A stretch of DNA of 45,995 nt, taken from NCBI GenBank assembly GCA_903959815.1, contig CAJBYM010000084.1, forward strand, positions 1-45,995. Reading direction: 5' to 3'. This DNA is from Candidatus Omnitrophota bacterium (lineage in GTDB: Bacteria; Omnitrophota; Gorgyraeia; Zapsychrales; Fredricksoniimonadaceae). This document shows, piece after piece, positions 12,888 through 27,109 of the stretch. Each line of letters begins with the position of its first letter. Position 1 is the stretch's first letter. The position numbers and the translations under genes are program-made. The notes under the pieces are model-generated. The model had not been told where the DNA came from, did no database searches, and saw nothing but the letters and a program-made list of their open reading frames with translations.

Positions 12888-14570
12888 TTGCATTTTCAAA
12901 AACACCCCACACGTGTTGCTCTCATATTTTTTATCTTCCTTTTCTGTATTACGCTGTTTTTCATCAAACTTTCTCTCATTCAGGTTTTTCGTGTTGATTA
13001 TCTCGCTGAAAAAGCTGACAAACAGCATAATCATATTGTTGAACTTCAGCCATTGCGAGGCGGGATCTATGATCGCAACATGCGTTCTTTGGCCATCAAT
13101 GTGGCGGCCTATTCTGTTTTCGCGAACCCCCGGAGCATGACAGAGGATCAGAAGTCTGCGGCGGCCAATGCGGTGGCCCAGGCGCTCGGTGGAAGTTCCG
13201 AGGTGTATGCTAAAAAGATGGAGAAAGAAAAGTATTTTGTCTGGCTGGCCCGTAAGATCCCGTCTGACAGGTATGAAGCGCTTAAGGCTCAGAAGGTTCA
13301 GGGTATCGGATTTGTTAAAGAGAGTAAGAGGTTTCATCCCAATGGCGACCTTGCGGCACATCTGATGGGGTTTTCGAATATTGATAATATCGGCTTACAG
13401 GGTGTTGAGCTCGAATACGATAAATATTTACGCGGCAGCAAGGGAATGGCCCAGTTCTTACGTGATGCCAAAATGCGTGATCTCATGATCGAGAAAGACT
13501 TTGTGGCGCCCAAGGATGGCAACAATGTTGTTTTGACGATCGATGAGACCATTCAGTTTATTGCCGAGAGGGCCCTACAAAAGGCATTTGAAAAACATAA
13601 TGCGGCCAGTGCTTCCATTATCGTGTTGGACCCTAAAACAGGGGAGGTCCTGGCTTTTGCCAATCGTCCGACCTTTGATCCGGATAAGCCGGAGGCATTT
13701 CCTATGGAGAACCGCACAAATCGGGCGGTGGCATTCGTTTATGAACCGGGGTCTGTATTTAAGATTGTTACCGCAGCGGCCGGGCTTGAGACGAAAGTTT
13801 TTAAGGAAGACGATATCATTTTTTGTGAGAATGGCAATTACAGGGTTGCTAACCATATTCTCCATGATCATGATCCTTTGGGTTCGCTCAGTTATCGTCA
13901 GGTGGTGATCCATTCAAGCAATATCGGCATCACGAAGATCGCGCAGAAGATCGGGGCTGACAAGGTCTATGAATATGCCCGCAAATTCCGTTTTGGTGTT
14001 AAGACCGGGATCGGCATGATCGGGGAAGTTAATGGCTGGCTTAAGCCGCCGCCACAGTGGTCTAAAACATCCATTGGTGCCATTCCCATCGGTCAGGAAG
14101 TCACGGTGACGTCGATCCAACTTGTTGCCGCGATCGCGGCGATCGCTAATGATGGCAAGTATATGAAGCCGTATTATGTGAAAGCGATCAAGGATCCGAA
14201 TGGTGGGATGGTCCATGAATTTCAACCCAAGGAAGAAGTGCAAGTTATTCATGCTGATATTGCACGCCGCATGAAAAGCATTTTACAGGGTGTTGTGGAT
14301 GAGGGGACGGCGACGTCTGCAAAAATGAAAGATATTACGGCGGCGGGTAAGACGGGAACGGCTCAGAAGGTCATTAACGGCACGTATTCGCACAGCAAGT
14401 TCGTGGCATCGTTCATTGGTTTTGCACCCGTCGATGATCCAAAGTTGGCCATCGTTGTGACCGTTGATACGCCGCATCCTAATTATTATGGCGGGATCGT
14501 TGCTGCACCTGTGTTTAAGGAAGTGGTTCAGGATTCGCTCCGATATCTGGCCACGAAAGGACGGCGCTGA
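12888..14570 (+). CDS. ftsI: Peptidoglycan D,D-transpeptidase FtsI/PBP (TTG start)
   Basis: N-terminal TM, RGGIYDRN, EPGSVFK (SxxK), SSN, KTGTAQK motifs. Confidence 0.93.
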   Translation: MHFQKHPTRVALIFFIFLFCITLFFIKLSLIQVFRVDYLAEKADKQHNHIVELQPLRGGIYDRNMRSLAINVAAYSVFANPRSMTEDQKSAAANAVAQALGGSSEVYAKKMEKEKYFVWLARKIPSDRYEALKAQKVQGIGFVKESKRFHPNGDLAAHLMGFSNIDNIGLQGVELEYDKYLRGSKGMAQFLRDAKMRDLMIEKDFVAPKDGNNVVLTIDETIQFIAERALQKAFEKHNAASASIIVLDPKTGEVLAFANRPTFDPDKPEAFPMENRTNRAVAFVYEPGSVFKIVTAAAGLETKVFKEDDIIFCENGNYRVANHILHDHDPLGSLSYRQVVIHSSNIGITKIAQKIGADKVYEYARKFRFGVKTGIGMIGEVNGWLKPPPQWSKTSIGAIPIGQEVTVTSIQLVAAIAAIANDGKYMKPYYVKAIKDPNGGMVHEFQPKEEVQVIHADIARRMKSILQGVVDEGTATSAKMKDITAAGKTGTAQKVINGTYSHSKFVASFIGFAPVDDPKLAIVVTVDTPHPNYYGGIVAAPVFKEVVQDSLRYLATKGRR

Positions 14571-16024
14571 TGCGGTTGAAAGATCTTTGGGAGGTGAAAG
14601 AACCTTTTATAGATATCGAGATTCCTGCTTTATGGGATGATTCCAGGCGGGTGACCCCGGGCAGTCTTTTTGCGGCGCTTCCGCCCGTTTCTAAAGTGAC
14701 AAAGGATGGGAAGGTTTTTATCGATGATGCTCTGGCGAAGGGTGCAGCGGTCGTTATTTTGGATCAAGGAGCTTTGACAGATCTTCCGCTTAAGTATCCT
14801 CAGGTGTGTTTTGTTCCTGTGGCTGATCCACGCGCAGCTTTTCGGAAAGTAGTCGGACGGTTTTATGGTCAGTTCTCAAAGAAGGTCAGGGTCTTAGGTG
14901 TTACGGGGACCAATGGCAAGACCACGATCACCTATTTTCTGGAATCGATCATCAAGGCGGCGGGAAAAAGAAGCGGGGTTGTCGGAACGGTCAATTATCG
15001 CGTGGGTGAGAAGATCCTTCCGTCTAAAAATACGACGCCGGGTTTTCTGGACAATCAGATCTTTTTGGCAAATCTTGCAGCTGATGTCGTGGATTATGCG
15101 GTGATGGAAGTTTCATCGCATGCCTTGGTGCAGAGGCGCGTAGACCTGATCAATTTTTGCGGAGCGATCTTTACGAATTTGACAGGAGATCATCTTGATG
15201 AGCACGGGGATATGGAGAATTATTTTAAGGCCAAGGCTTTGCTTTTCACGGCGTTGTCACCGAATGCATGGGCTGTTGTGAATGTGGATGACCTTTATGG
15301 TCAGCGGCTGAAAGCCATGACACGTGCGAGGGTGATCACGTATGCAATCAATGCTCCGGCCGATGTCACAGCGCATATTCAAGATTTTAATCTGGAAGGC
15401 ACACGTTTTAAAATCAGATTCTTTGGTCAGGAAATAGAGCTGCAGACACATTTTATTGGCCGGCACAATCTTTATAATATCCTTGCGGCTTTTGCGGCTG
15501 GCTTGGGCGAGGGGATCGATCCTGATGTTATCCGTCAGGGGATCGCGTCATTGGTCTTGGTGCCGGGCCGTTTGGAGCGCGTTGAATGCGGGAAGGATTT
15601 TTGTGTTTTTATTGATTATGCACATACAGATGATGGTCTGAAGAATGTTCTGGGTTGTTTGAAGGCGGTGCCGCACAATAAGCTCATTGTGGTTTTTGGC
15701 TGTGGGGGTGATCGTGACAGCACCAAGCGTCCCCGTATGGGCAGGGTCGCTTGTGAATTTGCTGATCATGCGGTTATTACGTCGGATAATCCGCGACGTG
15801 AAGATCCTTTGGCCATTATTGCCGAGATCGTGCCGGGATTTACGCATAAGAATTACGAGATCGAACCTGATCGTGAAAAAGCGATCGAGCGGGCGTTATC
15901 TCTGGCGGGAAAAGGTGATATTGTGCTTTTGGCAGGCAAGGGGCATGAAACGTATCAAGTCCTTAAGGACAGAACGATTGATTGTGTGGAACGGGATATT
16001 GTCATGAGGATATTAAAAAGATAA
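14570..16024 (+). CDS. murE: UDP-MurNAc-tripeptide synthetase MurE
   Basis: GVTGTNGKTTITYF, TSDNPRREDP (DNPR motif typical of meso-DAP ligases), KGHETYQ. Confidence 0.95.
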   Translation: MRLKDLWEVKEPFIDIEIPALWDDSRRVTPGSLFAALPPVSKVTKDGKVFIDDALAKGAAVVILDQGALTDLPLKYPQVCFVPVADPRAAFRKVVGRFYGQFSKKVRVLGVTGTNGKTTITYFLESIIKAAGKRSGVVGTVNYRVGEKILPSKNTTPGFLDNQIFLANLAADVVDYAVMEVSSHALVQRRVDLINFCGAIFTNLTGDHLDEHGDMENYFKAKALLFTALSPNAWAVVNVDDLYGQRLKAMTRARVITYAINAPADVTAHIQDFNLEGTRFKIRFFGQEIELQTHFIGRHNLYNILAAFAAGLGEGIDPDVIRQGIASLVLVPGRLERVECGKDFCVFIDYAHTDDGLKNVLGCLKAVPHNKLIVVFGCGGDRDSTKRPRMGRVACEFADHAVITSDNPRREDPLAIIAEIVPGFTHKNYEIEPDREKAIERALSLAGKGDIVLLAGKGHETYQVLKDRTIDCVERDIVMRILKR

Positions 16025-17394
16025 TGTTTACCATCCATGAAATCTTAGAAGCTACCGGTGGAACATTGATCGCGGGTAAGTCGACTCAGCGTTTATCAGG
16101 AGTATCGACTGATACGCGTTTGGTTAAACGTAATCAGATTTTTGTGGCGCTCAAGGGGGATAATTTTGACGGGCATCATTTTCTGGCTCAGGCGATTGAG
16201 AAGGGGGCGCGTGCTGTTGTTGTCAGCTCTGTAAAAGCGTTGGTTCCTGCTGGAGCAGCAGTTGTTCTTGTTGAGGATACGGTCAGGGCCCTTGGCCGGA
16301 TCGCGCGTTATCACCGTCAGCGTTTTAACATTCCTGTTATCGCTATCACGGGTAGTGCGGGCAAGACATCGACCAAAGAATTGATTGCCGCGGTCATGGC
16401 GAAGAAATGCCGGGTGCTTTTTAATAAGGGGACAGAGAATAACCATATCGGCGTTCCTATGACGCTATTGAAATTAAACCGCCGGCATCAGGCCGCGGTC
16501 ATTGAGATGGGTACCAATCATCCCGGGGAGATCGCCTGGCTTGCAGAGAATACATTGCCGACAGTTGCTGTATTCACGAATGTGGGCGCTTCACATCTCG
16601 AAGGTCTGGGGACACCGCAGGGTGTTTATAAAGAGAAACTTGCTCTGTTGAAATTCTTATCCCGCGATGGTCATGTGATCGTTAATGCGGACGATCCTTT
16701 CTGGGCCCGGCTTTTGAAGAAGCGCTTATCTCAGAAAGTAGTTTCTTACGGGATCAAGGCCAGGGCAGATGTACAGGCTATTGCTGTGACAGCGGATGCG
16801 CGGGGATTTCATTTTAAGATGAAGGATGGCCGTTTGTTCATTGTGAAAAGCCCGTCATGGGGTGCGGTGCAAAATGCGCTTGCAGCCATTGCATGCGGCA
16901 GGATCTTTGCTGTGCCTGAAGCCAGGATCCAGGCGGCGCTTAAAAGTGCTAAACCGGCTAAAGGGCGTCAGTCTCTGGCTGTTGTGCGGGGTGTAACACT
17001 GATCGATGATACTTATAATGCGAATCCGGTGTCTTATCAGAATGCGTTACGAACCTTGGCGATGTTGCAGGGTCATGCCCGTGCGGTTCTTGTGGCGGCA
17101 GACATGTTGGAATTGGGCGAACATTCCGTAGATCTCCATCGTCAAATTGGACAGGCAGCGGCAGGCATTAAGCTGGACGCTCTTTTTACATGTGGTAAGA
17201 ACGCACGGCTGATCGGTGAGGCGGCGCAAGGCAAAAGGTCAACGCTTGATGTCCGGCATTTTTCAGATCAAACCGCTTTGACCCTGGCGCTGAAACGGTA
17301 TCTTCGCCGAGGTGATCTGTTCTTATGCAAAGGATCTCGCGGGATGCGCATGGAGAAAGTCGTTGAAGATATTGTGGTATTCTTGAAAGGATAA
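16024..17394 (+). CDS. murF: UDP-MurNAc-tripeptide:D-Ala-D-Ala ligase MurF
   Basis: AITGSAGKTSTKELIA, NKGTENNHIGVPMTLL, VIEMGTNHPGEI, DDTYNANP. Confidence 0.95.
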   Translation: MFTIHEILEATGGTLIAGKSTQRLSGVSTDTRLVKRNQIFVALKGDNFDGHHFLAQAIEKGARAVVVSSVKALVPAGAAVVLVEDTVRALGRIARYHRQRFNIPVIAITGSAGKTSTKELIAAVMAKKCRVLFNKGTENNHIGVPMTLLKLNRRHQAAVIEMGTNHPGEIAWLAENTLPTVAVFTNVGASHLEGLGTPQGVYKEKLALLKFLSRDGHVIVNADDPFWARLLKKRLSQKVVSYGIKARADVQAIAVTADARGFHFKMKDGRLFIVKSPSWGAVQNALAAIACGRIFAVPEARIQAALKSAKPAKGRQSLAVVRGVTLIDDTYNANPVSYQNALRTLAMLQGHARAVLVAADMLELGEHSVDLHRQIGQAAAGIKLDALFTCGKNARLIGEAAQGKRSTLDVRHFSDQTALTLALKRYLRRGDLFLCKGSRGMRMEKVVEDIVVFLKG

Positions 17395-17398
17395 AACG

Positions 17399-18487
17399 AT
17401 GTTTTATTATTTATCGCAGTTGCGTTATGAATTTTTTCCGTTAAATATTTTTAAGTACATCACTTTTCGTGCGAGCATGGCCGCGGTGACAACATTCCTG
17501 ATCTGTATTATTTTCGGGCCATGGTTTATCCGCAAACTGCGGGAATGGAATCTGGGAGAGAAACCTGTGCTCGGGGCCAGGCAAGATATGCTCGGGGAGT
17601 CTTTGGTGGCTAAGACCGGAACACCGACCATGGGAGGCATCCTCATCATTGGGAGCATTCTCTTGTCGGTCTTTTTATGGGCAGACCTTCGTAATCCGTA
17701 CATCCTCTTGACCATGTTCACCATGGTGTGGCTTGCCGTGCTCGGGTTCTTTGATGATTATTTAAAGCTGAGAGGCATTTGCAAGAATGGGTTGCCCGCT
17801 CGCACCAAAATGATCTGGCAGGTTTTGCTAGCAGGGATCGTGAGCTTTTATCTTTATACACAGCTTCATATTGCCACAACACTCGATGTTCCGTTTTTAA
17901 AGAATCTGGCTATTGACATGGGTGTCTTTTATATGCTTTTTGTAATGGCGATCGTGGTCGGCACATCCAATGCCGTGAATTTGACGGACGGACTTGATGG
18001 CCTGGCCATTGGCTGTACGTTGATGGTGGCAACGACGCTCGGCGTGCTTTGTTATATTACGGGCAATATTAACATGAGTTCTTATTTGTTCATCCCGTAT
18101 ATTCCTGAGACAGGCGAATTGACCATTTATTGTGCTGCGATGGTCGGTGCGAGCCTGGGATTCTTGTGGTTCAATGCCCATCCTGCGGATATTTTTATGG
18201 GGGATGTTGGAGCTCTTTCCCTGGGCGGGACGATCGGGATCATCGCTGTCTTTATTAAGAAAGAACTTTTGCTGGTTATTCTAGGAGGGGTCTTTGTATG
18301 GGAAGCCCTGTCCGTCATTATTCAGGTTGCGTCTTATAAATTGCGACAAAAACGCATATTCTTATGTTCACCGTATCATCATCATTTGCAGAAATTAAAT
18401 TGGAAAGAATCAAAGATCGTGATCCGTTTTTGGATCGTGGCGATCGTTTTGGCGTTATTGACGCTGACGACATTAAAGATACGTTGA
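17399..18487 (+). CDS. mraY: Phospho-MurNAc-pentapeptide translocase
   Basis: TPTMGGILI, FFDDYLKL, NAVNLTDGLDGLA, HHHLQK. Confidence 0.96.
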   Translation: MFYYLSQLRYEFFPLNIFKYITFRASMAAVTTFLICIIFGPWFIRKLREWNLGEKPVLGARQDMLGESLVAKTGTPTMGGILIIGSILLSVFLWADLRNPYILLTMFTMVWLAVLGFFDDYLKLRGICKNGLPARTKMIWQVLLAGIVSFYLYTQLHIATTLDVPFLKNLAIDMGVFYMLFVMAIVVGTSNAVNLTDGLDGLAIGCTLMVATTLGVLCYITGNINMSSYLFIPYIPETGELTIYCAAMVGASLGFLWFNAHPADIFMGDVGALSLGGTIGIIAVFIKKELLLVILGGVFVWEALSVIIQVASYKLRQKRIFLCSPYHHHLQKLNWKESKIVIRFWIVAIVLALLTLTTLKIR

Positions 18488-18493
18488 GGAGAT

Positions 18494-19753
18494 ATGGATT
18501 TAAAAGGTAAGAAGGTAACTATTATCGGTGCGGCACGCAGCGGGATAGCCGCGGCTAATCTGGCTTATGGTCAGGGTGCGGTGGTGAAGATCACGGATGC
18601 CAAACCTTTGGCAGATATTGATAAAGCATTGGCCGGTCTTGCGGACAGATCCAAAGCCATTGTCGAGGCCGGGGCGCATACGCGTAAGTTTGTGCAGGAT
18701 TCTGATATTGTAGTGGCAAGTCCTGGTGTCAGGAAAGATGCAGAGCCCTTGCAGTGGGCGCGTGAAAAAGGGATACCGGTCATGGGAGAGATCGAATTTG
18801 CTTGGTGCTTTTGTACCAAGCCGGTCATTGCCGTGACAGGTTCGAATGGAAAGACGACGACGGTCAATCTTATTGCAGAGGTCCTTAAAGCGGGTGGTAA
18901 TACGGTATGCTTGTGCGGCAATGTGGGAACACCGTTTGCCCAGCATGTGTTGACGCCGGGCATTGATTATTTTGTTGTTGAGATCAGTTCCTTTCAGCTG
19001 GAGCTTTGTGTAACTTTCCGTCCCTATATCGCGGTGTTGACCAATTTCAGTCAGAATCATCTGGATCGTCATCCAGATATGCAGGATTATTTTGAGGCGA
19101 AGAAACGCGTGTTCATGAATCAGACGGCATCGGATTTTTCGATCCTGAATGCCGCTGATCCGTGGTCGCAAAAGATAGAAGCAGGAGTGTCTTCCCAGGT
19201 GGTGTTCTTTAACAAGGCAGGGGAGGCGCGCAATCCCAATCATCTTGCGGTCCTTGAAGTGGCACGTATCGTCGGCATTTCTGATGATATGGCATGTAAG
19301 GTGTTTGAAGCCTTTCCCGGTGTTGAGCATCGTATGGAGCTAGTGCGAATTTTAAAAGGCGTGGAATATGTCAATGATTCTAAGGCCACAACAGCAGAGT
19401 CTGGGCTTTGGGCCCTGACCCGCATGGCGGCGCCGATTATCATGATCTGCGGTGGGCATGATAAGGGTGAGATTGATTTTTCTGCGCTGAAGGACCTGGT
19501 GAAGGCAAAAATCAAGAAGATGATCGTCCTGACGCGCGAGGATGTGGTGCGCAAGAAACTGCATGATGCTTTTGAAGGTGTTGTTCCCATCGAGGACTAT
19601 ACGGATATGGGGGAGGCACTGCGTGCAGCGCAAACTCAGGCCGTGTCCGGGGACAAGGTACTCCTTAGTCCGATGTTCGCCAGTTTTGATATGTTCAAGA
19701 ATTTCGAAGAACGGGGAAAAGTATTTAAGCAGATGGTCAATGATCTAAGGTGA
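18494..19753 (+). CDS. murD: UDP-MurNAc-L-alanine:D-glutamate ligase
   Basis: AVTGSNGKTTTVNLI, VEISSFQLE, FPGVEHRMELV, VNDSKATT, ICGGHDKG. Confidence 0.95.
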   Translation: MDLKGKKVTIIGAARSGIAAANLAYGQGAVVKITDAKPLADIDKALAGLADRSKAIVEAGAHTRKFVQDSDIVVASPGVRKDAEPLQWAREKGIPVMGEIEFAWCFCTKPVIAVTGSNGKTTTVNLIAEVLKAGGNTVCLCGNVGTPFAQHVLTPGIDYFVVEISSFQLELCVTFRPYIAVLTNFSQNHLDRHPDMQDYFEAKKRVFMNQTASDFSILNAADPWSQKIEAGVSSQVVFFNKAGEARNPNHLAVLEVARIVGISDDMACKVFEAFPGVEHRMELVRILKGVEYVNDSKATTAESGLWALTRMAAPIIMICGGHDKGEIDFSALKDLVKAKIKKMIVLTREDVVRKKLHDAFEGVVPIEDYTDMGEALRAAQTQAVSGDKVLLSPMFASFDMFKNFEERGKVFKQMVNDLR

Positions 19754-19756
19754 TGT

Positions 19757-20851
19757 ATGCGTGACATCCGGTTTACATTTTTTGCCTCTTACATCATGCT
19801 CCTGTGTTTGGGCGTGGTCATGATCTATAGTTCAAGCGGTGTCTATGCGCTGGAGACCATGAACAATAGCGCATATTTTCTGATCCGTCATTTGATGTTT
19901 CTTGTTATCGGCGGGGTTATGATGTGGTTTGTCATGATCATGGATTACAGGGATATTCAAAAATATGCCAAGCCTATTCTTGTGGCCGCGCTGGTCATGC
20001 TGGTGCTTGTTCTTGTCCCACATATCGGAAAGGTTTCTTCGGGTGCGCGTCGTTGGTTCAGCGCGGGGCCGATCAATTTTCAGCCGTCAGAATATGCGAA
20101 GGTGGCCATGATCGTTTATCTCGCGGATTTTTTCTCCCGCAAGCGTTCATCGATTCGTTCGTTCTCCCGCGGCTTTATGCCCGTGGCCTTGATCATGGGG
20201 CTGATGTGTGTCCTCATTATCAAACAGCCAGACCTGGGCAATACGGTCCTTGTTACGGTTATTACCATGTCCATGTATTTTGTGGCGGGAGGAAGAAAGA
20301 GCCTTTTTGCGGCTATTGCGGCGCTGGCTGTACCTATTTTGACGGTTCTTATTGTTACGGTGCCTTATCGTATGCGCCGTATGGTGTCGTTCATTAATCC
20401 ATGGGATGATGCCCAGGGGGCAGGGTTTCAGTTGTCCCAGTCGCAGATCGCTTTAGGTGCAGGAGGATTTTGGGGTGTGGGTTTGGGTAAGAGCGAACAA
20501 AAACTTTTTTATCTTCCAGCGGCGCATACGGATTTTATATTTTCCATCATTGGTGAAGAACTCGGCTTTCTGGGGGCTTTGGCGGTCGTGGCTCTTTTTG
20601 GTGTTTTTATCTGGCAGGGAACGCGGATCATCCGCCATGCTACGGATTCGTTCGGATATCTTTTATCTGTGGGGATCATGGTGATGCTCAGTATTCAGGT
20701 GGTGGTGAACATCGGCGTCAGCATTGGTGCTTTGCCGACGAAAGGGTTGCCTCTGCCATTTATCAGTTATGGTGGATCGGCTCTTATTTTTAATATGATG
20801 GCGGTCGGGCTTTTGCTAAATGTTTCGCGCACACAGGATATCGGCGGTTAG
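19757..20851 (+). CDS. ftsW: SEDS glycosyltransferase FtsW
   Basis: Multi-TM; IYSSSGVYA, QPSEYAKVAMIVYLADF, FSIIGEELGF, GLPLPFISYGGSALI. Confidence 0.93.
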   Translation: MRDIRFTFFASYIMLLCLGVVMIYSSSGVYALETMNNSAYFLIRHLMFLVIGGVMMWFVMIMDYRDIQKYAKPILVAALVMLVLVLVPHIGKVSSGARRWFSAGPINFQPSEYAKVAMIVYLADFFSRKRSSIRSFSRGFMPVALIMGLMCVLIIKQPDLGNTVLVTVITMSMYFVAGGRKSLFAAIAALAVPILTVLIVTVPYRMRRMVSFINPWDDAQGAGFQLSQSQIALGAGGFWGVGLGKSEQKLFYLPAAHTDFIFSIIGEELGFLGALAVVALFGVFIWQGTRIIRHATDSFGYLLSVGIMVMLSIQVVVNIGVSIGALPTKGLPLPFISYGGSALIFNMMAVGLLLNVSRTQDIGG

Positions 20852-20852
20852 T

Positions 20853-21947
20853 ATGACAAAGATTCTGATCGCGACAGGAGGTACCGGAGGGCATGTCTAT
20901 CCGGCGGTCGTAACCGCACAGGAGTTACGTCGGCGTGGGTGTCAGGTTGTGTTCATCGGGACTTTTGGAGCGGCCGAAGAGAAGATCAAAGATGCGGGAT
21001 TTGACCGGGTAGCTATTGTTTCAGAAGGATTTGTTTCCCGGGGCATTCTTCAAAAGATAGCTGCGGTGGGGGCCATGGTCATGGCGTTCGGTCGGTGTGT
21101 TCAATGTATGCGCAGCCTTCGACCGGATATTGTTCTGGGTTTTGGAGGGTATAGTTCTTTTCCAACGGTCTTGGCTGCGTTCTGTTGTGGCGTGCCGGCC
21201 ATTGTTCATGAACAGAATGCATTGCCGGGACAGGCGAACAAGCTTTTGGGGATGTTGGTTCGACGTGCTGCTGTCGGGTTTAAAGACGCCGCAGGCTTTT
21301 TTCCTAAAGGCAAGGCTGTTTGGACAGGAAATCCATTAAGGCCGTTTGATATGTTGATGTCACGCGAACAGGCGCATGTTGAGCTTGGCCTTGATGTTTT
21401 AAAATGTACGGTCTTGATATTTGGAGGAAGTCAGGGGAGCCGGGCGATCAATGCGCATGTGGTTGAGGTGTTCTCTGACATCCCTCAGGGGGTCGACGTT
21501 CAGGTCATTCATATCACAGGAAAGAAAGATTTTGAGCAGGTCAAGGATCGTTACCGCATGTTGGGGGTGAGTGCATTGGTCCGTGAATATATGGAGCGCA
21601 TCGCTGTGGCTTACGCTGCTGCGGATTTGGTCATTGGCCGCTCCGGCGCAGGTACGGTCACGGAACTTGGGCTTTTGGGAGTGGCGGCGGTTCTTATTCC
21701 GTATCCAGGTGCCAGGGATCATCAGAAATATAACGCGCGTGTTTTGGAGCGTTTGGGGACAGCCTCAATAATTGAGGAAAAGTGCTTGCGACAGGATATC
21801 CTTCGCGATAAGATTTTTTCGCAGCTTAGGCGAGATCCTTCCGGTATTTTGCGTGCAAAGAACCGTGATATATTAAAAAATGATTTCATCGTCGACGGGG
21901 CTGAACGTTTGTGCGATGAGGTCTTAAAGTTGGCTCATGCCTGTTAA
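20853..21947 (+). CDS. murG: Undecaprenyldiphospho-muramoylpentapeptide beta-N-acetylglucosaminyltransferase
   Basis: IATGGTGGHVYPA, GFGGYSSFPTVLAA, HEQNALPGQANKLL, GGSQGSRAIN, GRSGAGTVTEL. Confidence 0.96.
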   Translation: MTKILIATGGTGGHVYPAVVTAQELRRRGCQVVFIGTFGAAEEKIKDAGFDRVAIVSEGFVSRGILQKIAAVGAMVMAFGRCVQCMRSLRPDIVLGFGGYSSFPTVLAAFCCGVPAIVHEQNALPGQANKLLGMLVRRAAVGFKDAAGFFPKGKAVWTGNPLRPFDMLMSREQAHVELGLDVLKCTVLIFGGSQGSRAINAHVVEVFSDIPQGVDVQVIHITGKKDFEQVKDRYRMLGVSALVREYMERIAVAYAAADLVIGRSGAGTVTELGLLGVAAVLIPYPGARDHQKYNARVLERLGTASIIEEKCLRQDILRDKIFSQLRRDPSGILRAKNRDILKNDFIVDGAERLCDEVLKLAHAC

Positions 21948-22758
21948 AAATTGTGGGATCAAGAGTTTTTTGGGAGCGGGGCTTGTTATAGCCATAACTC
22001 TCTGTGGGGTGTTGGCCGCACGGGTTGTTGTGGCCGCATCATCCCCCTGGCAGGAAGAGAAGAGTGAGCATTTCATCATTGCGTATCAACATGTTCCTGA
22101 GAGTTTTGTGAAGGATGTGATTGAGGCGGCTGAAGACCATTACCGTCAGACCATGACCACCTTGGGATTTACACGCTACACCGGATGGACATGGAAAAAC
22201 CGTGTGAAAATCGTGATCCATGATTCACAGTCGGCGTATGTGAAAGCGTCCCATTATGCTTGGTCGGCCGGACAGGTTAGTCCGGACACCAAAGAGATCG
22301 TTACGTTTCCATCAGAAAGTGGTTTCTTTGATTCGCTTTTACCGCATGAATTGGGGCATATCATTTTTCGTGAAGGCGTTGGATTTCATGACAATATCCC
22401 CTTATGGCTGGAGGAGGGGGTTGCGATGTATCAGGAGCGTGCCCGTCGGCTAGGGGCTGATGCTGATGTGCGCGATCTGATCGCGCAAGGTTACTTTATT
22501 CCGCTCGAAGATCTTGATCGGATCACTCTTCGTTCTGGAACAAGCCGTGCCACAGTACAGATATTTTATACAGAGGCGGCAAGTCTGGTTGGTTTCTTGA
22601 TCAATAAGTATGAAGTCTATCGTTTTGTCAGGCTTTGCCGTGAGCTCAAAGAGGGGCAACGCTTTGATGTGGCGCTGAATAAAGCGTATATGGAATTTCC
22701 GAATCTTTCGGCATTGGAACGGTCATGGAGGAGATATTTGGATGAAACTCGCGAGTAA
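21937..22758 (+). CDS. Secreted/membrane-anchored HExxH metallopeptidase (peptidase MA-like)
   Basis: N-terminal signal/TM; LLPHELGHIIFREG (HExxH) followed by PLWLEEGVAMYQE (third-ligand Glu context). Confidence 0.8.
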   Translation: MPVKNCGIKSFLGAGLVIAITLCGVLAARVVVAASSPWQEEKSEHFIIAYQHVPESFVKDVIEAAEDHYRQTMTTLGFTRYTGWTWKNRVKIVIHDSQSAYVKASHYAWSAGQVSPDTKEIVTFPSESGFFDSLLPHELGHIIFREGVGFHDNIPLWLEEGVAMYQERARRLGADADVRDLIAQGYFIPLEDLDRITLRSGTSRATVQIFYTEAASLVGFLINKYEVYRFVRLCRELKEGQRFDVALNKAYMEFPNLSALERSWRRYLDETRE

Positions 22759-25099
22759 GAAAAAGACAACGATCAGTCGCTATCATTTCATAGGTGTCGG
22801 CGGTATGGGGATGGGGAACCTTGCCCTTTTGATGCTGGCAAAAGGTTTTCAGGTCAGCGGCTCTGATCAAAAAGAGAGTGAGCTCACCCGTCAGTTGCGT
22901 GAAAAGGGCGCCACGATCTTCATCGGCCATGATATTTGTCATGTCGAGGGTGCAGATTGTGTTATTTATTCCTCTGCGATCAAGGCGGACAATCCTGAAA
23001 TGTTTCAGGCGTTCAGCCTTCATATCCCAGTGTTGCGGCGGGCGGAATTGTTGGCGCAGCTTTTGAATAAAGAAGTTGGCATTACCGTTGCAGGTGCGCA
23101 TGGAAAGACTACAACGTCGTCGATGGCATCTTATCTTTTGATCAAGGCAGGGTTAAAGCCGACCACGGCGGTCGGAGGCATTGTCAATCAGGGAGATTAC
23201 AACGCCAATCTTGGCATCGGGCGTCATATGGTGGCAGAAGTTGATGAAAGCGATGGGTCGTTCCTTTATTTTGCGCCGCATTTTTCGATCATTACGAATA
23301 TTGATGCCGAGCACCTTGATTTTTATCATACGTTTGAGAAAGTCCAGGAGGCCTATGTTAAGTTCGTGGATCGTACCGTGCCCAACGGGATCTTGATCAC
23401 TTGCGGCGATGACAAGATCCTCAGCGGCATTGTCGAAAAGAGTGGCCGACGCTTTACGACCTATGGATTCGGGCAGGGTAATGACTGGGTTGCCACGAAC
23501 ATTCAGTTGGATTCTTTTGGCTCTTCTTATGATTGTTATCACCAGGGGCAGCGCGTGGGGCATTTTTCTCTTATGGTGCCCGGGAAACATAATGTGCAAA
23601 ATTCATTGGCGGTTGTGGCGCTAGGCCATGAGCTGAAGATCGATTTGGCGGTGATCCAGGATACGCTTAAGACCTTTCAGGGTGTGAAGCGGCGTTTTGA
23701 ACGGAAAGGGGAGTGTGGGGGCGTGCTTGTGGTCGATGATTATGGGCATCATCCGACGGAGATCGCCGCTACGCTGCAGACAGCTAAGACTTTGGACCGC
23801 AAGCGTCTTCTTGTTGTTTTTCAGCCGCATCGGTATTCTCGTACTAAATTCTTGATGAATGAATTCTCCGGATGTTTCAATCTGGCGGATCATCTGGTTC
23901 TTATGGATATTTATCCCGCGAGTGAGAAGCCCATTGAAGGCGTAACAACGGAAGTTTTGATCGAAAGAATCCGTGAAAAACGTCCGCAGGAAATAATGCA
24001 TTTGAAAAAAGAACAGATCGTTGAACATTTGATGGGGGTTGTTAAACCGGGTGATCTTGTGCTCACGTTGGGGGCCGGAGATATAACCCAGATCTCGGAT
24101 GATCTGGCGCGTCGTCTGGTGCAGCGCGCGACATTGGGACAGGGACGTGGTGTTATTGGCGTTATTATGGGCGGATGCTCATCCGAGCGGGAAGTTTCTT
24201 TAAGATCTGGTAATGCGATCGTTCAGGCGCTGACAGTTGCTGGTTGTTCGGTGAAAGCGCTTGATCTGCAAAGTGAAGATCATGATACGGTTAAGTCGTG
24301 GCTTAGAGGCGAAAAGATCGACATGGCGTTCATTGCACTTCATGGTCGTTTTGGTGAGGATGGGGGGATCCAGGCGATCCTGGAAGAACTCAATCTTCCG
24401 TATAATGGTTGTGGCCCGTCGTCAAGTTACGCGGCTTTCAATAAATGCGTGTCGCAGAAGACTTTTGAGGAGCATAAAGTACAGACTCCTTCGACCATCA
24501 TGGTCAGCGGGCTTGAAGGGTTTGATGCTCAGCAGGCTGTGGCGCGTCTGGGCGGTTTTCCTGTGGTGGTTAAACCTGCGTGTGAGGGATCGAGTATCGG
24601 CGTGAGCCTTGCCGCAGATCAGGATTCTTTTTTAGCAGCTCTTTCTAAAGCTTACGAATACGGTAAGGATATTGTGATCCAGCGCTACATTAAAGGCCGT
24701 GAACTTACAGTCGGCATTTTGGGCGCTCAAGGTTTGCCTGTTGTCGAGATCAGGGCTGCTCAGACAGCGTTCTTTGATTTCCAGGCTAAATATAAGAGCA
24801 ATACAACGGAATATATTGTTCCGGCTCCGTTGTCGCTTGAAACCAGCGTGCGTGTTCAGGCGGAGGCGCTCAAGGCCTATAAGGCGCTGGGGTGTGAAGG
24901 GTTTGGTCGTGTCGATATCCTTTTAGGGGAAGATGATGAACCCTACGTGCTCGAGATCAATACGATCCCGGGGTTTACGGCGACGAGTTTACTTCCTAAA
25001 GCGGCCCGCGCAGCGGGGATAGATTTTACACAGCTTTGTTTAACGTTAGTTGATATGGCGTATGGTAAAAAGAAAGCAGAGTCCCTCCCTAAATCCTGA
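22742..25099 (+). CDS. murC-ddl: MurC-Ddl fusion: UDP-MurNAc:L-alanine ligase fused to D-alanine:D-alanine ligase
   Basis: N-half: GVGGMGMGNLALL, AGAHGKTTTSSM, HHPTEI. C-half from about codon 470: GVIMGGCSSEREVSLRSG, VVKPACEGSSIGV, EINTIPGFTATSLLPKAA. Confidence 0.95.
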   Translation: MKLASKKKTTISRYHFIGVGGMGMGNLALLMLAKGFQVSGSDQKESELTRQLREKGATIFIGHDICHVEGADCVIYSSAIKADNPEMFQAFSLHIPVLRRAELLAQLLNKEVGITVAGAHGKTTTSSMASYLLIKAGLKPTTAVGGIVNQGDYNANLGIGRHMVAEVDESDGSFLYFAPHFSIITNIDAEHLDFYHTFEKVQEAYVKFVDRTVPNGILITCGDDKILSGIVEKSGRRFTTYGFGQGNDWVATNIQLDSFGSSYDCYHQGQRVGHFSLMVPGKHNVQNSLAVVALGHELKIDLAVIQDTLKTFQGVKRRFERKGECGGVLVVDDYGHHPTEIAATLQTAKTLDRKRLLVVFQPHRYSRTKFLMNEFSGCFNLADHLVLMDIYPASEKPIEGVTTEVLIERIREKRPQEIMHLKKEQIVEHLMGVVKPGDLVLTLGAGDITQISDDLARRLVQRATLGQGRGVIGVIMGGCSSEREVSLRSGNAIVQALTVAGCSVKALDLQSEDHDTVKSWLRGEKIDMAFIALHGRFGEDGGIQAILEELNLPYNGCGPSSSYAAFNKCVSQKTFEEHKVQTPSTIMVSGLEGFDAQQAVARLGGFPVVVKPACEGSSIGVSLAADQDSFLAALSKAYEYGKDIVIQRYIKGRELTVGILGAQGLPVVEIRAAQTAFFDFQAKYKSNTTEYIVPAPLSLETSVRVQAEALKAYKALGCEGFGRVDILLGEDDEPYVLEINTIPGFTATSLLPKAARAAGIDFTQLCLTLVDMAYGKKKAESLPKS

Positions 25100-25844
25100 T
25101 ATTGTGCGGACTGTCGGGCTGGTTTGCATTTTTGTTCTGGGCATCGCTCTGGCCGTGATGGCTGCAGTTTCTTTCTTTCGGAGCGTGTGTGCATCATCTC
25201 TTTTTACGGTGCGCACGATCACCATTGCGGAGCATATTCAGCCATTAGATTTGCCGGAACTGGCGAAGCTTAAGAACCAGAATCTCTTTTCTGTGGACTT
25301 GACCAAGGTGGAAGCCAGGATCCATGGCAGATATCCTCAGCTGGCTGATCTGCGTGTTTTGCGCCGGTTCCCGGATCAGATCTTCGTGACAGCAACCCGG
25401 CGAGATCCTTTTGCAAAAGTTTCTTTAGATGGCCGTTTGTGTGTGATCGATCGTGCTGGTTTTATGATCGGAGCGCCGATCGAAGGTCAGGAGTCCTTGA
25501 CGTTGATCAAAGGTTTAAAACGTCAGAAAGTATCAGCGGGTGATCCGATCCAGGATGATCGGGCCAAGCTTGCCGTGATGATCATCACACTTTTTCATCA
25601 GGATAAACGACTTTCTTCTGTTGGCCTTCAGAGCGTGGACGTGGATGATCTGACCCGGATCATTTGTGATCTTGGTATCGAGAAGGCCGCGTTTGAAGTG
25701 GTCATCGATAAGGATAATATAAGGACGCGCATCAAGACACTTTCCGATGTGTTGTCCCGCGGCGGGTTGGATCTTCAGCAGATCAAATACATGGACCTTC
25801 GTTTTGGTGAGCCCATCCTTGGGCAGAAAAAGGTAAAGAAATGA
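25062..25844 (+). CDS. ftsQ: Cell division protein FtsQ/DivIB-like (POTRA)
   Basis: Single N-terminal TM, FTVRTITIAEH...NLFSVDLTKVEARI...RRFPDQIFVTATRRDPFA; lies between ddl and ftsA. Confidence 0.85.
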   Translation: MVKRKQSPSLNPDIVRTVGLVCIFVLGIALAVMAAVSFFRSVCASSLFTVRTITIAEHIQPLDLPELAKLKNQNLFSVDLTKVEARIHGRYPQLADLRVLRRFPDQIFVTATRRDPFAKVSLDGRLCVIDRAGFMIGAPIEGQESLTLIKGLKRQKVSAGDPIQDDRAKLAVMIITLFHQDKRLSSVGLQSVDVDDLTRIICDLGIEKAAFEVVIDKDNIRTRIKTLSDVLSRGGLDLQQIKYMDLRFGEPILGQKKVKK

Positions 25845-27109
25845 AAGGCATTCCCAGATCTATTGGTCAATTCTTTGGTGGACAGTATTATTGTGGGTTG
25901 GACATTGGCTCTTTTAAAGTGAAAGCGAGCTTGAACCGTGTTGTTGATGCGCAAACGCTTGAGCTTCTGGCGGTCAATGAAGCCGATACCCGAGGGCTTG
26001 CGGCGGCGTCCATTAATGATATCAGTGATTTTTCATCTTGTATCAGTGCTGCTATGGATGGCGTTTTGAGGAAAACCAGGATCAAGGTCCGTGATGTGCA
26101 TGTGGGCCTCGGTGGGGAATTCATTGATACCCGCCTGAGCCGTGCGCTCATTCCATTGGTTGAACGCGGTAATAAGATCGTGACGGCGCGTGATCTTCAT
26201 CATGCCCGTCAACAAGCCCGAATGCTTGGTGTGCGTCTGGATGAAGAAGTTGTTTGTGATATGGTCCAGCAATTTAAAGTGGATGATGTCAATATTGCGC
26301 TGAACCCTATCGGACTTTACGGGCGAAAACTTGAGGTTGAAACATTGCTCGTGCTGGCGAATATTACGCGTTTGCGTAATTTGACCAAAGCCGTACAGCA
26401 GGCCGGATTTGAGGTCAACGATGTTCATTTTAATGCATGGGCTGCTACGGAGCTTATGCTTGACCGGCGTCATCGGAATGATGGGTGTGTTTTCGTCGAC
26501 CTTGGTGCGCGCACGAGCTTGGTGCTTGTGTTTAAAGAAGGGCTTTTGAAAGGTTTTCGCAAGGTTGAGGTTGGCGGAGATCTTATGACACAGCACATTG
26601 CGGCCAGTCTTAACATTCCTTTTCAGCTTGCGGAAGATATCAAGAAATCCTATGGCCGTGTATTAGACGGGAAGTCCGATCTTACTCAGGATGTTGGTTT
26701 AAGTTCCGAGGAGATTTTGATCAAGAAGGATGCTGGATTTGTTCCCGTGAAGCGGGATGCTTTGAGCCATGCGATCGAGCCGGATATCCGTTTGATCTCC
26801 GATCAGATCCGTCAGGTGGTAGCGTTATCAGGATATGAGGGTCAGTTGAAGTCAGGGATCGTTGTTGTGGGTGGTGGTTCTTTGCTGGCAGGTTTGATGG
26901 AACGTATGGAGAATGATGCGCACATGCCGGTCTCACTCGGACGGAATATACCGGGTCTTAATAGCGCTGCGGTTTACTGCATTTCAACCAGTCTTGCTGA
27001 GATGGGGTATAAGAATACGTTGCGGTATAAATTGGATTCACAAAAGCCCAAAGACTGGTGGGACGGATTCAAGGCCAAAGCAGAAGAGCTGAGCAACGAA
27101 TATTTCTGA
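25841..27109 (+). CDS. ftsA: Cell division protein FtsA
   Basis: CGLDIGSFKVKA, HVGLGG, CVFVDLGARTSLVLVF, VVVGGGSLLAGLMERM; C-terminal DWWDGFKAKAEELSNEYF may be an amphipathic tail. Confidence 0.9.
   Translation: MKGIPRSIGQFFGGQYYCGLDIGSFKVKASLNRVVDAQTLELLAVNEADTRGLAAASINDISDFSSCISAAMDGVLRKTRIKVRDVHVGLGGEFIDTRLSRALIPLVERGNKIVTARDLHHARQQARMLGVRLDEEVVCDMVQQFKVDDVNIALNPIGLYGRKLEVETLLVLANITRLRNLTKAVQQAGFEVNDVHFNAWAATELMLDRRHRNDGCVFVDLGARTSLVLVFKEGLLKGFRKVEVGGDLMTQHIAASLNIPFQLAEDIKKSYGRVLDGKSDLTQDVGLSSEEILIKKDAGFVPVKRDALSHAIEPDIRLISDQIRQVVALSGYEGQLKSGIVVVGGGSLLAGLMERMENDAHMPVSLGRNIPGLNSAAVYCISTSLAEMGYKNTLRYKLDSQKPKDWWDGFKAKAEELSNEYF

Follow-up and report, generated by a model that had tools for sequence, protein, structure and literature searches.

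A gene for a predicted periplasmic, gluzincin-type metallopeptidase lies between murG and murC in the dcw cluster of an Omnitrophota bacterium, overlapping both neighbours, and the same gene order is found throughout much of one class of this uncultured bacterial phylum. Tentatively, with a rough probability of 0.45, its product can be read from sequence and modelled fold as a soluble periplasmic zinc endopeptidase that would trim, activate or clear envelope proteins and would be co-translated with MurG and MurC. The dcw cluster is among the most conserved of bacterial operons, and it is unusual for a non-standard member to persist across much of a class.

The peptidase gene overlaps murG and murC-ddl

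The window, the whole stretch of 45,995 nucleotides analysed in this study, belongs to an assembly of 1.8 Mb in 139 contigs. It carries a dcw cluster (12888-27109, + strand) with the order ftsI, murE, murF, mraY, murD, ftsW, murG, peptidase, murC-ddl, ftsQ and ftsA, and no ftsZ; the genes from ftsI to ftsW were called by reading translations, and murG, murC-ddl, FtsQ and FtsA by Pfam. The peptidase ORF (21937-22758, +) starts with ATG, encodes 273 amino acids and is the sole carrier of an HExxH motif among the 63 stop-to-stop frames of at least 150 amino acids in the whole window. It shares 11 bp (21937-21947, +) with the upstream murG (20820-21947, +; Pfam Glyco_tran_28_C, 1.7e-34, and Glyco_transf_28, 1.5e-30) and 17 bp (22742-22758, +) with the downstream murC-ddl fusion (22742-25099, +; Pfam Mur_ligase domains and Dala_Dala_lig_C, 4.1e-51), and these coordinates confirm the ORF and the overlaps given in the first-pass annotation. 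Family members embedded in the dcw cluster typically overlap both neighbours: the median spacing to murG is -4 bp over 156 loci and that to murC -8 bp over 140, counts that include some genomic sites retrieved twice. A chance or mis-called ORF is ruled out by the Pfam match, the conservation and the overlap in many genomes. The murC and ddl genes, fused in the window, are separate frames in some relatives (L298, L300 and L301).

Active site, predicted fold and predicted export

The protein matches PF13485 (Peptidase_MA_2) with an E-value of 2.2e-11 and 44.4 bits, above the curated gathering cut-off of 32.4, and a paralogue from the gsp operon of the same genome scores 54.1 bits. In an alignment of 183 homologues from all three clades of the family, H137, E138, H141, E160 and Y211 are invariant (183/183); HExxH was demanded at selection, yet not one homologue was discarded for want of it. 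H137, E138 and H141 form the predicted zinc-binding and catalytic motif HELGH (22345-22359, +). E160 (codon 22414-22416), the candidate third zinc ligand, lies in EEGVAMY (22411-22431, +), and the HExxH-x18-E spacing read from the sequence is that of M1 peptidases. Y211 (22567-22569, +) is a candidate transition-state tyrosine, placed by a weak alignment to the M1 motif YSKGAS (E=0.4) whose register is suggestive. A PDB sequence search with the single protein returned no significant match, and the family profile gave weak matches to M1 aminopeptidases (E 0.2-1), in register, with E160 on WLnEGFA and Y211 on the tyrosine of YSKGAS. The top Foldseek matches of the AlphaFold model (pLDDT 91.9, pTM 0.84) are the peptidase domains of collagenases H, G and T (best E=1.9e-7, TM 0.60), followed by M1 aminopeptidases, placing the predicted fold among the gluzincins. 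The peptidase-MA/gluzincin-like layout first proposed from HELGH and EEGVAMY is thus borne out by the PF13485 match, Foldseek and the M1-register alignment, with its catalytic residues conserved among homologues. Together, profile and model support the assignment of the protein to the gluzincin-type metallopeptidases of PF13485.

Residues 1-35 (21937-22041, +) form a heuristically predicted signal peptide with a putative cleavage site, and residues 11-27 are helical in the AlphaFold model. By the same simple heuristic, all 67 family members examined have an N-terminal hydrophobic core with an AxA-like site after it, and none of these 67 N-termini has a lipobox. The segment that had been noted as a signal or transmembrane stretch therefore resembles a cleavable signal peptide of type I, and export is predicted. 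The GAMEN exopeptidase motif is absent from the translated peptidase, and an endopeptidase mode is suggested because this anchor and the extra M1 domains are missing. The protein most likely cleaves periplasmic proteins as a zinc endopeptidase, a description in which we infer the export, the zinc, the activity, the endo-mode and the protein substrate alike.

Recurrence of the murG-peptidase-murC order

Homologues were found in 50 of the 55 genomes of a genus-to-order sample that includes the genome of the window. Nearly all loci in this sample have the order ftsW-murG-peptidase-murC-ddl or gspF-peptidase-gspG-gspI-gspJ, the exceptions being L053 and L071 with neither dcw nor gsp neighbours. 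Class- and phylum-wide searches with neighbour annotation extended the murG-peptidase-murC order to 71 genomes, every one from the class of the window's organism and together spanning 46 genera in 17 families. In addition, a motif scan of GTDB r220, with one genome per species, retrieved 80 loci, of which 74 are flanked by both murG and murC and two by only one of them; these loci overlap partly with the 71 searched genomes, and the scan patterns favoured the dcw clade. A one-genome oddity or binning error is ruled out by these genomes and public loci, partly from the same organisms, and the proposal that the arrangement would recur is upheld well beyond a single genome. The Omnitrophota-type order also occurs in two public records titled 'Planctomycetales bacterium' (SBBO01000020.1, L221) and 'Sulfurimonas sp.' (MIBZ01000037.1, L236), which are probably mislabelled or mixed assemblies. 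A literature search of open papers found no earlier account of the murG-peptidase-murC order or of the other operon placements, which are new here as far as those papers show, the PF13485 family and the fold being already known.

Insertion, inheritance and loss of the dcw copy

In trees of 198 proteins (FastTree) and 85 representatives (IQ-TREE), the main dcw copies fall into a single, moderately supported clade (SH-aLRT 88). The copies from a third context form a separate clade (SH-aLRT 99), and those from the gsp operon mostly group apart. Among 94 dcw loci, the median pairwise identity is 44% for the peptidase, 36% for MurG and 48% for MurC, and peptidase distances correlate with those of MurG (r=0.77) and MurC (r=0.64; Mantel 0/999). 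The trees, identities and distance correlations therefore indicate one main insertion followed by vertical inheritance with the operon and some losses. Several divergent copies near murG or murC (L099, L101, L128, L131 and L132) fall outside the dcw clade and may be separate insertions.

Within the sample, the dcw copy is confined to one class rather than present phylum-wide. In 30 control genomes of the class with a weak match or none, no peptidase lies at the murG-murC junction of any locus that yielded both genes, and a few of the close relatives (L295-L298, L300 and L301) likewise have an empty site with murG abutting murC. Five genomes (G006, G036, G048, G052 and G053) also lack a strong murC match, and their dcw copy was counted as missing data, not as absent. 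Because murG abuts murC elsewhere in the phylum, the peptidase gene is regarded as a lineage-specific insertion that was sometimes lost, and because it is missing from relatives with such a junction, the dcw copy is dispensable in evolution.

Sister copies in other envelope operons

The genome of the window carries a second copy (L002; G000:C3:9013-9813) between gspF and gspG, with 35% identity to the first. The surrounding operon (L336 625-15294, G000:C3) has the order gspE-gspF-peptidase-gspG-I-J-K-PilM/N-PilO-TPR, is of the type II secretion/pilus type and lies directly downstream of the genes for the alpha, delta, gamma and beta subunits of an F-type ATPase. The gspF-peptidase-gspG order was found in 46 genomes from 20 families, some of them outside the class, and an empty gspF-gspG site in relatives without the gsp copy (L305-L311). 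A role of the gsp copy as a substitute for the prepilin peptidase (PilD/GspO) is ruled out, since a Peptidase_A24 protein is present in the same genome.

The third clade has 19 loci. Those with long enough flanks are preceded by the genes for a large secreted repeat protein and a membrane protein of ~240 amino acids, and a response-regulator/GGDEF protein and F-type ATPase genes follow on the other side, these neighbours being identified by reading the translations of a few loci. A partial protein resembling the ~240-amino-acid membrane protein precedes the gsp/F-type ATPase region in the genome of the window, which suggests that the gsp and third contexts belong to a single, larger gene region. 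The theme common to the three contexts is the handling of envelope proteins, not division as such.

Genomes with an empty dcw site often retain the gsp copy, and vice versa. Strict redundancy of the two copies is nevertheless unsupported, since G016 and G023 (MAGs 80-87% complete) carry neither and the numbers are small. In L137, L139, L140 and L142, two peptidase copies lie close together. In L179 and L180, the peptidase domain lies within much longer open frames of 868 and 793 amino acids, respectively, which suggests multidomain relatives outside the class.

Absence of FtsZ

FtsZ was not found in the genome of the window, in 54 of the 55 order-sample genomes or, with the tubulin/FtsZ GTPase model PF00091, in any of 145 phylum-sample genomes. 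TIGR00065 matched 2 of 384 genomes: G054, which passes the cut-off with a short contig that is probably contamination, and G253, with a weak 51-bit match. In the complete genome of Ca. Velamenicoccus archaeovorus, whose dcw peptidase is at locus L257, ftsQ-ftsA is followed by a YggS-like gene and not by ftsZ. Despite this absence, the window retains FtsA (25841-27109), FtsQ, FtsW, FtsI and the mur genes. The finding is hard to square with published lists in which Omnitrophota keep the dcw genes: PMC12283558 counts them among the phyla with conserved dcw genes. PMC5147048 left the FtsZ question open. The loss of FtsZ is uninformative on the dcw peptidase, as it extends across the phylum to genomes that have the dcw copy and to genomes that lack it.

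Possible function of the dcw-embedded peptidase

In the reading we prefer, a gluzincin-type peptidase gene would have been inserted, mainly once, between murG and murC in an ancestor within one Omnitrophota class, and the peptidase would be translated together with MurG and MurC, so that its dose would follow cell-wall synthesis. The enzyme, predicted to be soluble and periplasmic, would cleave proteins rather than peptidoglycan, and may trim, activate or clear envelope proteins, acting on their periplasmic domains where the wall is growing. Members of the two sister clades would do a corresponding job for the type II secretion/pilus-type machine and for the large secreted repeat protein. MurG and MurC are cytoplasmic, however, and it is not obvious how a soluble periplasmic enzyme would make contact with them, so that the link could be one of expression only.

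Alternatively, the gene could be an operon passenger, with the dcw cluster serving as a mere constitutive expression site for a general housekeeping or nutritional (predation-type) protease. Such a role would agree with the dispensability of the dcw copy, with paralogues in unrelated envelope operons and with the predatory or host-dependent life of at least some Omnitrophota (PMC12583861, PMC10066038), but long retention at one junction, overlaps on both sides and conservation above that of MurG make it unlikely. Another candidate role is that of a peptidoglycan endopeptidase or remodeller, the dcw copy opening the wall so that it can grow and the gsp copy letting the secretion apparatus through. 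In its favour, two of the three fixed settings involve either the growing wall or a machine that has to cross it. The nearest folds found by Foldseek, however, are those of protein and peptide peptidases, and the third context features a large secreted repeat protein. The known zinc wall hydrolases have other folds (M15/M23/MepA), and on these grounds a wall enzyme seems unlikely. A catalytically dead scaffold or binding protein retaining only the peptidase fold is highly improbable, given the invariance of all five catalytic residues across the three clades.

The first-pass annotation had proposed the processing of division or envelope proteins, or regulation linked to the cell wall, as possible roles. 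A protease that regulates FtsZ-less division by cutting FtsI, FtsQ, FtsL or FtsW in its periplasmic domain would account for a gene that has a fixed place in the dcw operon and shares its inheritance with murG and murC, in a phylum whose division must be unusual because no FtsZ is detectable. We nevertheless consider it quite unlikely: FtsZ is absent whether or not the dcw copy is present, secretion operons are an equally fixed location for the family, and some lineages have lost the dcw copy. Fixation in the gspF-gspG operon and beside the secreted repeat protein weakens a specific link to division or to wall-linked regulation, and a core division function does not fit close relatives in which murG abuts murC; a general role as an envelope protease is favoured because of these sister clades and absences. 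A broader proposal, which we consider quite unlikely, is that several Omnitrophota envelope machines recruited an exported gluzincin family in parallel, the dcw member being a processing protease coupled to wall synthesis that helps FtsZ-less division.

The presence of one protease family in three envelope operons offers a concrete route to the envelope proteins that depend on proteolysis. The phylum consists mostly of ultra-small bacteria, some of them predatory, with a full set of wall-synthesis genes and, on present evidence, no FtsZ.

Comparison with known systems

In its standard mur and fts genes and its murC-ddl fusion, as in Chlamydia, the cluster resembles the dcw clusters of the PVC superphylum described in PMC12283558 and in passages of PMC5147048. 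Only standard genes are covered by these surveys, as far as those passages go: the words 'peptidase' and 'protease' do not occur in the text of PMC12283558, and the Omnitrophica passages of PMC5147048 mention neither.

The M9 collagenases (ColH/ColG/ColT) are the best structural matches of the predicted model (TM 0.60/0.46, E=1.9e-7) and, as secreted zinc endopeptidases, resemble the predicted-secreted Omnitrophota peptidase. Identity to them is only 14-18%, however, and the 273-residue protein has no M9 Pfam match and is too short for the activator domain, which it lacks. With the M1 aminopeptidases (LTA4H, APN, ERAP), it shares HExxH-x18-E, a tyrosine in the YSKGAS register (weak) and fold matches, but at 273 residues it is too small to hold the N-terminal saddle domain or the C-terminal domain, both of which it lacks, and the sequence similarity is weak (E 0.2-1).

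Closer to hand, the gsp paralogue of the same genome, 35% identical, has the same motifs, a signal-peptide-like N-terminus and a tight operon position, but belongs to a separate clade and occupies the gspF/gspG site instead of murG/murC. The literature search found no described PF13485 member inside a dcw cluster. The Omnitrophota proteins resemble Peptidase_MA_2 in passing the curated cut-off, in HExxH and the third glutamate and in their similar length, and differ in forming clades tied to particular operons.
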